From: Oscillospiraceae bacterium
GTDB taxonomy: Bacteria > Bacillota > Clostridia > Oscillospirales > Oscillospiraceae
DNA: 38,460 nt
Direction of reading: 5' to 3'
Assembly: GCA_022800665.1 (NCBI GenBank)
Contig: JAAWQS010000022.1
Location: forward strand, 1 to 38,460
Shown piece after piece: positions 29,708 to 32,410 of the stretch; positions within the stretch are counted from its first letter, which is position 1, and every line of letters begins with the position of its first letter. Under the pieces are notes generated by a model, which was given only the letters and a program-made list of their open reading frames with translations, was not told the DNA's origin and did not search any database. The translations under genes and the position numbers were made by a program.

Positions 29708-31051
29708 TTACAGTCCCTGGGCAATCATTGCCTCGGAAATTTTCTTGAACGCGGCGATATCGTTTCCGGCAATGAGGTCGTACCCCAGACCGTACTCCTC
29801 CGCGGCGGCGGCAGAGGCGTCGTAGATACTGCTCATAATCCCCCGCAGCTTCTCGTCCACCTCCCGGCGGGACCAGCTGTAGCGCAGGCTGTTCTGCACC
29901 ATCTCCAGGGCGGACACCGCCACGCCGCCGCTGCCCGCCGCCTTAGCTCCGGCGGTCAGAATCTTCGGGCTGAGCCGCAGCAGCTTCAGCGCGTCGGCGG
30001 ACGCGGGCATGTTGGCCGCCTCCACATAGTAGCGCACGCCGTTGGCCAGAATCAGGACCGCGTCGTCCACGGTGATCTCGTTCTCGGCGGCGCAGGGGAT
30101 GACGATATCCACCGGCGCTTCCCAGGGCTTTTTTCCGGGGTAAAACGTCACGCCGAATTTCTCCGCGTAAGGCTCCACCCGGTCCAGACCGCTGCTGCGC
30201 AGGTCCCGGACAAAGTCGAATTTCTCCTGGGTGACTACGCCGTCGGGGTCGTACACGTACCCGTCGGGACCGGACAGGGTGACGACCCGCCCCCCCAGCT
30301 CTGCGGCTTTCCGGCATACGCCCCAGGACATATTGCCGAAACCGGATATGGCGATCCGTTTGCCTGCCAGCTCCTCCCCTTGATGCTCCAGCATCCGGGC
30401 CAGGAAGTAGACCGTGCCGAAGCCCGCCGCGGCCTGGCGGATTTTACTGCCGCCGTAGGTCAGGCCCTTACCGGTGAGCGCGCTGCTCTCCGCCCGGCCC
30501 GTCACCCGCTTGTACGCGCCGTACAGATAGCCGATCTCCCGCACGCCCACGCCGATATCGCCGGCGGGCACGTCGGTATCCGAGCCGATATAGCGGTAGA
30601 GGTTGAACATAAAGCTCTGGCAGAAGCGCATGATCTCCCGGTTGGACCGGCCCCGCGGGTCGAAGTCCGCGCCGCCCGCCGCGCCGCCGATGGGCAGGCC
30701 GGTGAGGGCGTTTTTATAGGTCTGCTCAAAGCCCAGGAATTTGACCACCGAGGCGGTTACAGACGGGTGGAACCGCAGGCCGCCTTTATAGGGGCCGATA
30801 GCGCTGCTGAACTGCACCCGGTAGCCGTGGTTGGTGTGGGTGGCGCCCTGGTCGTCCTGCCAGGGGACCAGAAAGGAAAACATCCGCTCCGGCTCCACCA
30901 TCCGGCTGAGCACGTCCAGCCGCTCATATTCCGGCCTGTCCACGGCGGGGGCGATCATATCCAGCCATGCCCGGACGCACTGCAAATACTCCGGTTCGTT
31001 GGGGTAGAGGCGTTCCAGCCGCTCCAGCACGCGGGCGATATACTCGTTCAT
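29708..31051 (-). CDS. Glutamate dehydrogenase paralogue lacking the catalytic lysine
   Basis: A 447-residue full-length member of the hexameric NADP-type glutamate dehydrogenase family, with most landmarks intact: [12 protein letters not shown] (Lys89), Lys113, PAGDIGVG with catalytic Asp165, the Rossmann motif GFGNMSWG and SALEMVQNS. But the active-site loop reads PIGGAAGGADF, so residue 125, the catalytic Lys of the family (GGxKGG), is Ala (codon at 30677-30679). The motif R-x-E-A-T-G-Y-G, with the nicotinamide-contacting Thr, is RQAAAGFG here (Ala209), and GVGGRE is GVGVRE. Dehydrogenase activity is therefore doubtful. It begins 12 bases after the canonical gdhA stop with AAGGGGGCGG as ribosome site, so both are co-expressed. 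No frameshift or early stop is seen. Confidence 0.9.
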   Translation of the reverse strand: MNEYIARVLERLERLYPNEPEYLQCVRAWLDMIAPAVDRPEYERLDVLSRMVEPERMFSFLVPWQDDQGATHTNHGYRVQFSSAIGPYKGGLRFHPSVTASVVKFLGFEQTYKNALTGLPIGGAAGGADFDPRGRSNREIMRFCQSFMFNLYRYIGSDTDVPAGDIGVGVREIGYLYGAYKRVTGRAESSALTGKGLTYGGSKIRQAAAGFGTVYFLARMLEHQGEELAGKRIAISGFGNMSWGVCRKAAELGGRVVTLSGPDGYVYDPDGVVTQEKFDFVRDLRSSGLDRVEPYAEKFGVTFYPGKKPWEAPVDIVIPCAAENEITVDDAVLILANGVRYYVEAANMPASADALKLLRLSPKILTAGAKAAGSGGVAVSALEMVQNSLRYSWSRREVDEKLRGIMSSIYDASAAAAEEYGLGYDLIAGNDIAAFKKISEAMIAQGL

Positions 31052-31063
31052 ACTGCCGCCCCC

Positions 31064-32410
31064 TTACACCACGCCGTAGGCCAGCATGGAATCCGCCACC
31101 TTCAGGAAGCCCGCAATATTCGCACCCGCCGCCAGGTTGCCCGGCATTCCGAACCGCGCGGCGGCGTCGGAGGCATTGCGGTACAGGTCGGTCATAATGC
31201 GCTTGAGGTGGTCGTCCACCTCCTCAAAGCTCCAATAGAAGCGCATGGAGTTCTGGCTCATCTCCAGGGCGGAGGTGGCCACGCCCCCGGCGTTGGCGGC
31301 TTTGGCAGGGGCAAACAGGACGCCCGCCGCCTGGAGCGCGTCCACCGCCTCCGGGGTGCAGGGCATGTTGGCTCCCTCGGCCACGGCAAAGCAGCCGTTG
31401 GCAATCAGGGTTTTGGCGGCCTGCCCGTCCAGCTCGTTCTGGGTGGCGCAGGGCAGGGCGATGCCGCAGGGGATGGTCCAGATGCCGGCGCAGCCGGTGT
31501 GGTACTCCGCTTCAGGGTGGGTCTCCACATAGGCGCTGATGCGTCTGCGCTCCACCTCTTTCAGCTGCTTGATGAGGGGCAGGTCGATGCCGTTTTTATC
31601 GTAGACATATCCGCCGGAATCGGACATGGCAACCACCTTCGCGCCGAAGGCGGCGGCTTTCTCACAGGCGTAGATGGCCACGTTGCCGGAGCCGGAGACG
31701 GCAACCGTTGCGCCGTCAAAGCTCCTTCCGTTATCCCGCAGCATGTTGTCCGTGAAATAGCACAGGCCGTAGCCGGTGGCCTCCGTGCGGGCCAGACTGC
31801 CGCCGTAGGTCAGGCCCTTGCCGGTGAGCACGCCGGTGAACTCGTTGGCAAGGCGTTTGTACTGGCCGAAGAGGTAGCCGATCTCCCGGCCTCCCACGCC
31901 GATGTCGCCGGCGGGTACGTCGGTATCCGGCCCGATATATTTGAACAGCTCCGTCATAAAGCTCTGGCAGAAGCGCATGACCTCGTTCTCGCTCTTGCCC
32001 TTGGGGTCGAAGTCGCTGCCGCCCTTGCCGCCGCCGATGGGCAGACCGGTGAGGCTGTTTTTGAAAATCTGCTCAAAGCCCAGGAATTTGATAATGCCCT
32101 CGTAGACGGAGGGATGGAATCGCAGACCGCCCTTATAGGGTCCGATGGCGCTGCTGAACTGCACCCGGAACCCCCGGTTGACGTGAACGTTCCCCTGGTC
32201 GTCCTCCCAGGGGACGCGGAACTTGATAATCCGCTCCGGCTCCACCAGGCAGTCCATCACGCCCTCGCGGATATATGCAGGGTGCGCGTCCACCACCGGG
32301 GACAGGGACGCCAGCACCTCGCTGACGGCCTGGTGAAATTCCGGCTCCGCCGGGTTGCGCTTCACAACGCGCTCCATAAGCTGGCGCAGGTATTCGTTGG
32401 AAATGCTCAT
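31064..32410 (-). CDS. gdhA: NADP-type glutamate dehydrogenase
   Basis: Glutamate dehydrogenase interconverts 2-oxoglutarate plus ammonia and glutamate, and is a main ammonia-assimilating and amino-acid-fermenting enzyme in Clostridia. The 448 residues show every family motif: [28 protein letters not shown] with catalytic Lys129, [13 protein letters not shown] with the catalytic Asp, RTEATGYG, the Rossmann motif GSGNVAIYA and [13 protein letters not shown] use the ATG at 32410, with GGAGG eight bases upstream; a TTG 15 bases earlier overlaps that site. It is the first gene of a two-gene unit whose second member is a catalytic-site variant. Confidence 0.96.

Follow-up and report, generated by a model that had tools for sequence, protein, structure and literature searches.

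Two adjacent glutamate dehydrogenase-type genes

The window, by which is meant the whole 38,460-nucleotide stretch of Oscillospiraceae DNA that was analysed, carries two glutamate dehydrogenase (GDH)-type genes arranged head to tail on the reverse strand, both with intact reading frames. The first of these, termed T (31064-32410, reverse strand, 448 amino acids), encodes an active-type, NADP-type GDH of subtype T1, and the second, termed P (29708-31051, reverse strand, 447 amino acids), encodes a candidate GDH pseudoenzyme. The third GDH of the same genome, a separate NAD-type enzyme (locus L002), is termed A. T and P are separated by 12 nucleotides (31052-31063, reverse strand), with a Shine-Dalgarno-like AGGGGGC lying over the stop codon of T, so that the full-length tandem arrangement and the good ribosome site for P described in an earlier note on this DNA both stand. 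The shared promoter proposed there is implied by the operon-like spacing, but was not borne out by a sigma-70 promoter scan, which returned 1 site near the pair against 0.9 expected in shuffled sequence. A GC-rich hairpin of 17 pairs situated 3′ of P (29569-29606, no strand assigned) is a possible terminator of the pair, although a weak candidate, as 2 terminator-like sites were found near the pair against 3.0 expected in shuffles, with this hairpin scored on the forward strand only. Rfam searches near the pair gave no RNA elements at E values up to 0.5, and a tRNA scan of the window found none.

Both proteins have the two-domain organisation of the family, P matching the GDH/ELFV domains PF02812 and PF00208 over their full length with 169 and 228 bits. 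T scores 758 bits against NCBIfam NF006929 (NADP-specific GDH), and P, at 589 bits, also exceeds the cut-off of 536, so automatic annotation would class P as an enzyme.

Active-site residues lost and retained in P

Residues are numbered as in the Clostridium symbiosum enzyme, to which P had been described as aligning without gaps; the alignment in fact contains one 1-residue gap at about position 37, and the numbering coincides from position 38. P reads GGAAGG and RQAAAGFG, confirming that the catalytic Lys125 (codon GCG, 30677-30679, reverse strand) and Thr209 of the nicotinamide pocket (30425-30427, reverse strand) are both replaced by Ala. Asn373 of the same pocket is replaced by Gly (29933-29935, reverse strand). 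Over ten tested site residues the signature of P is KKADTRANGS, compared with KKKDTRTNNS in active-type GDHs; T is canonical at all ten, and KKKDTRTNNS is found in all 127 active-type alignment rows in which the ten residues can be read. The active-type rows, 132 altogether, are termed active by their sequence; the alignments omit identical proteins and matches shorter than about 150 residues, and some positions cannot be read in partial rows.

The same losses are found throughout the 19 P sequences identified. Position 125 is Ala in 17 and Ser in 1 of the 18 P rows readable there and Lys in every active-type row that can be read (130 of 130); position 209 is Ala in 19 of 19 and Thr in 131 of 131, respectively; and position 373 is Gly in every P row (19 of 19) and Asn in every active-type row (132 of 132). 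No readable active-type row carries the Ala or Ser125, Ala209, or Gly373 of P. In excerpts of a study of Arabidopsis GDH1 (AtGDH1; PMC7326016), Lys102 is described as priming the attacking water, and Thr185, Asn216, Asn312, and Asn337 as making up the nicotinamide site. Matched by position and spacing, these five residues correspond to K125, T209, N240, N347, and N373 of the C. symbiosum enzyme. The nicotinamide pocket of P has thus lost T209 and N373 in all 19 rows and kept N240 and N347 in all 19, Gly239-Asn240 of the dinucleotide loop being retained. The catalytic Asp165 is present in all 18 P rows readable at that position, and K89, Q110, K113, T193, R205, and S380, which we take to be substrate-site residues, are retained in every readable P row; the retention of Lys89, Lys113, and Asp165 noted earlier is therefore confirmed and extends to Ser380.

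The pattern is consistent with a protein that is unable to perform the redox chemistry and may still bind glutamate or 2-oxoglutarate. That the substrate residues are kept is no proof of ligand sensing, because conserved positions in general are kept: active-type GDHs show 107 positions with conservation of at least 98%, of which 93 (87%) are kept by all P, 7 are mixed, and 7 (K125, T209, V241, P368, N373, A430, and N431) are never kept. All 19 P rows carry N373G, P368G, A430N, and N431D, with V241 replaced by Met in 18 and Thr in 1. Positions never kept make up 3 of 6 catalytic or nicotinamide residues (K125, D165, T209, N240, N347, and N373) versus 4 of the other 101 conserved positions (Fisher p = 0.003), a descriptive value for a set picked after the losses were seen, with the 7 mixed positions scored as not lost. 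P also has 25 near-invariant residues that are rare in active-type GDHs; the near-fixed, P-specific residues include Trp28, His75, Arg138, Arg186, and Arg219, and several are basic.

Two other differences in the P of the window do not characterise the clade. Val170, previously listed as a departure from Gly, was rejected as a lesion; C. symbiosum has Ala here, and the position varies among the 19 P rows (Ser 13, Val 3, Ala 2, Asp 1). The loss of Glu207 was likewise rejected as a clade trait, with Glu in 15 P rows, Ala in 3, and Asp in 1.

Distribution of P

P was found at 19 loci, comprising 16 from the same genus, 1 from each of two other genera, and 1 record of unmatched genus. Within the genus, 25 genomes were searched, that of the window included, and P orthologues with 75-91% identity to the P of the window were seen in 16; of the 9 genomes in which P was not seen, 8 are less than 90% complete. 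A draw of 300 genomes from the family (E up to 1e-185) added the two other genera (G094, 87% identity; G103, 78%), and a genome-contig scan, in which the best 80 of 589 matches were considered, added one record (L034, 77%). No further P was found in an order-level draw of 394 genomes (E up to 1e-188), the family and order thresholds both being such that they reach close relatives only. The bacteria with P are probably a group within the Oscillospiraceae.

A strain-specific mutation or sequencing error was rejected as the source of Ala125: the loss of Lys in 18 of 18 readable orthologues, with varied Ala codons and one Ser, argues against chance. The search for homologues that the earlier note had proposed thus gave no Lys125 in any readable P row, and T precedes P in all 19 loci. 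Reading frames are open and without stops in 18 of the 19. The P orthologue of G007 (L114, G007:C107:25000-31000, about 3245-4415) is broken, with residues ~93 to 148 missing and the remainder frame-shifted and in pieces, which is either a recent loss or an error of metagenome-assembled genome (MAG) assembly.

Pairing of P with one subtype of T

The gene immediately ahead of P is T in each of the 19 loci (cut by the contig end in three) and is always of subtype T1, with a gap of 11-16 nucleotides in 15 loci and of 24, 53, 97, or 302 in the remainder. The T1 sequences occupy a branch separate from a second subtype, T2, in a tree holding 16 of 18 T1 and all 5 full T2 sequences; the two partial T1 were assigned by identity, and the partial T sequences of G022 (adjoining P) and G013 (without P) resemble T1 and T2, respectively. 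Identity is 77-96% among T1 sequences and 62-70% between T1 and T2. Six same-genus genomes have T2 without P (G006, G008, G012, G013, G014, and G015), and in three others, G004, G011, and G020 (77, 89, and 76% complete), A was seen with neither T nor P. Several of the six genomes with T2 have its neighbourhood in common, which is not that of the P loci, and this suggests that one GDH unit has been replaced by another.

The 30 T loci nearest to the T of the window in the family draw divide in the same way. All 7 with at least 78% identity have P, and the 23 with 74% or less have no P in view, one of the latter (L173) ending just after T and so leaving no room for P to show. T1 itself has nine near-fixed, derived positions whose residues are rare in 28 other T sequences, for example Tyr445 in 18 of 18 compared with Gln in 28 of 28; together with the 25 characteristic residues of P, these are as expected if T1 and P have adapted to each other.

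The sequence surrounding the pair is less constant. An upstream flank is common to four P loci (window, L115, L116, and L117) and a downstream flank to six (window, L115, L117, L119, L128, and L142), whereas the flanks of the remaining P loci, examined over up to 4 kb, match no other P locus, those shorter than 0.8 kb (upstream in six of the 19 loci, downstream in one) carrying little information. As the order of T and P is kept while the flanks mostly differ, the two genes form a conserved unit wherever they are visible. In L119 (4475-4776, G005) the 302-nucleotide gap between T and P is hairpin-rich and palindromic, matches stretches in L021, L022, and L033, which are other loci of the genus, and is like a small mobile or REP-type element placed between the paired genes.

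Among the best 80 of 589 matches in the contig scan, a second GDH lies within the fetched flank in 4 of 79 other loci, with its site residues intact. One of these, L039 from a Clostridiaceae MAG, has a T-type and an A-type gene on the same strand, 385 nucleotides apart (3119-6161, forward strand), the two intact-site GDHs following one another as T and P do. This pair possibly resembles the arrangement that preceded the loss of the site from the second gene; other sequences are nearer to P in the tree than the A-type gene of L039.

Phylogenetic origin of P

A tree was constructed by a quick method from 104 rows of at least 420 amino acids, with one third of loci L061-L113 included, with midpoint rooting and SH-aLRT values as the only measure of support. 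P forms a single clade (support 100) inside a group shared with C. symbiosum GDH and A-type sequences (support 97), and the T sequences adjoining P form a separate group (support 99). P therefore groups with the NAD-type enzymes and is not a copy of its neighbour, and a local tandem duplication of T was rejected as its source. Its stem is long, at 0.73 changes per site, which points to a protein that changed fast once and was held thereafter. Sequence identity agrees with this placement, P being about 50% identical to T and 57-60% identical to A (57% in the genome of the window).

Cofactor-associated positions give the same division. Ser238/Ser262, a state reported for most NADPH-GDHs in excerpts of PMC3157743, is found in all 20 T rows. 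Phe238, Pro262, and Asp263, the pattern of the NAD enzyme, are present in the P rows and in most A rows. The A gene of the genome of the window is canonical in sequence and (L002 2954-4282, forward strand) is followed by a D-serine dehydratase-like gene, recognised by eye from its translation.

Selection on P, T, and A

The NG86 method, in which dS is an approximation given the GC content here, gave a median dN/dS of 0.159 (P) and 0.137 (T) over 153 genome pairs and of 0.079 (A) over 55 pairs. When G007 and pairs with a dS of 1 or more are set aside, the medians become 0.171 for P (109 pairs, 0.054-0.402) and 0.144 for T (112 pairs, 0.041-0.344). Both are far from the value near 1 that the earlier note had named as evidence against a retained protein and, as the ratio for P is also near to that of T, P is not a pseudogene. 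The preference expressed there for a retained pseudoenzyme over a drifting pseudogene is strongly supported by this result, by the loss of Lys in 18 of 18 readable sequences from three genera and the unmatched record, and by a gene order kept in 19 of 19 P loci. Median dN is 0.118 for P, 0.097 for T, and 0.052 for A.

Constraint is unevenly distributed along the two proteins. In the first domain (residues 1-200) P is less constrained than T (dN/dS of 0.177 versus 0.093), which lends no support to an assembly surface under tight constraint in that part of P; the second domain is alike in both (0.180 versus 0.184), and the last segment (from residue 424) is especially constrained in P (0.049 versus 0.158). 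The dN distances of P and T are correlated (rho 0.88, 153 pairs) more closely than those of P and A (0.65) or of T and A (0.49) over 55 pairs; for P and T, linked inheritance alone could explain the correlation.

A proposed role for P and its alternatives

GDH stands at a branch point of carbon and nitrogen metabolism, and the hexamers formed by enzymes of the C. symbiosum type are generally regarded as homomeric. Judged from the sequence comparisons above, P is probably a pseudoenzyme kept under selection, and its most likely role is that of a regulatory subunit of T1 in mixed hexamers. P would have lost the oxidoreduction of glutamate and 2-oxoglutarate, and be catalytically dead in vitro, while keeping its fold and substrate pocket; it would be expressed and translated together with T1, itself an active NADP-type GDH, with which it would form mixed hexamers. 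Regulation would run from P to T1, with the P subunits tuning T1 activity, and the input to this control could be the intact glutamate/2-oxoglutarate site of P, with either compound as the putative ligand, or a new contact site. The pairing of P with one subtype of T, together with a precedent in Thermus (below), favours T1 as the protein regulated. The more specific proposal that a former NAD-type active site has become an allosteric glutamate/2-oxoglutarate sensor inside a mixed hexamer with an NADP-type GDH is put forward tentatively, as conceivable rather than probable. If true, regulatory GDH subunits would have been invented twice, independently, the second time with the old substrate pocket as the controlling element.

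P might instead be a free-standing, ligand-binding homohexamer that senses or buffers glutamate or 2-oxoglutarate, or moonlights, without joining T1. Such a protein could well have retained its substrate-site residues and most conserved positions, acquired near-fixed residues of its own (e.g. Trp28, His75, Arg138, Arg186, and Arg219), and be nearer to A than to T, but this reading alone leaves the pairing with T1 across changing neighbourhoods unexplained, and we consider it unlikely. It is somewhat more doubtful still that P is an altered enzyme in which another residue stands in for Lys125, with a changed reaction or another cofactor. Two nicotinamide-pocket residues are gone besides the Lys, and no readable row among the 132 active-type GDHs is without any of K125, T209, and N373; this would have to be set against the retention of Asp165, K89, K113, S380, and Gly239-Asn240 and the several near-fixed, P-specific basic residues.

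The greater identity of P to A (57-60%) than to T (about 50%), and its origin on the A side of the tree, mean that P could prefer A, the distant NAD-type GDH, as its partner in place of T1. This is improbable, as P adjoins T1 and not A in 19 of 19 P loci, A is seen without T or P in three same-genus genomes, and six others have T2 without P. A decaying pseudogene or sequencing artefact, to which the one broken copy (G007) and a median dN for P slightly above that of T and more than twice that of A might point, is scarcely credible and was rejected for the clade in view of open frames in 18 of 19 loci, a median dN/dS of 0.171 (range 0.05-0.40), and the presence of 93 of 107 conserved positions in all P.

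Comparison with known systems

In Thermus thermophilus, according to excerpts of PMC9570180, GDH forms a heterohexamer of four inactive GdhA and two GdhB subunits, in which GdhA is a leucine-responsive regulatory subunit. The likeness of P and T1 to this complex (PDB 3AOE) would lie in an inactive GDH-family subunit placed beside an active one, a P-T1 complex being proposed by analogy. P differs in not being of the GdhA lineage by sequence: among solved structures its best match is C. symbiosum GDH (1BGV, E 3e-176), and the far weaker matches to the 3AOE chains (5e-55 and 2e-40) indicate that P arose separately from Thermus GdhA. The P gene adjoins an active GDH gene in all 19 P loci, in likeness to gdhA and gdhB of Thermus, which are presumably adjacent as well. 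With the NAD-dependent GDH of C. symbiosum and with A, P shares its family, a near-equal length, and an end-to-end alignment, but unlike both it is without K125, T209, and N373. The trypanosome AdoMetDC prozyme is a dead paralogue that, according to PMC5201418 and PMC6221367, governs its active partner through a complex; this is a different enzyme from GDH, and P would resemble it as a dead paralogue whose complex is a proposal.

A dead paralogue serving as a regulatory subunit is already known, even within GDH. Within a limited literature search, no description of a GDH pseudoenzyme in the Oscillospiraceae was found, and what appears to be new is the lineage in which it occurs, its independent origin, the combination of losses, and its linkage to a single active subtype from another subfamily. 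A dead paralogue that is tied to a single active subtype across its clade would mean that pseudoenzyme-based heteromeric control has arisen more than once among GDHs, and T1 with P versus T2 without P offers a natural comparison within one genus.

Surrounding sequence in the window

Functional neighbours were rejected as a clue to P, as the flanks are shared by a few close loci only. Downstream of the pair in the window, genes for alpha-amylase-domain, CZB (zinc-binding) chemoreceptor, and metallo-beta-lactamase-fold proteins are found (25330-28568, forward strand; 28856-29488, reverse strand). An open frame of 947 amino acids (29618-32461, forward strand) crosses both GDH genes in antisense and most likely results from GC-rich codon use. 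A fatty-acid-synthesis-like cluster, recognised by Pfam, occupies 16403-24285 (forward strand) and contains biotin carboxylase, two carboxyltransferase-type, KAS III-type, nitronate-monooxygenase-family, and beta-ketoacyl synthase genes.
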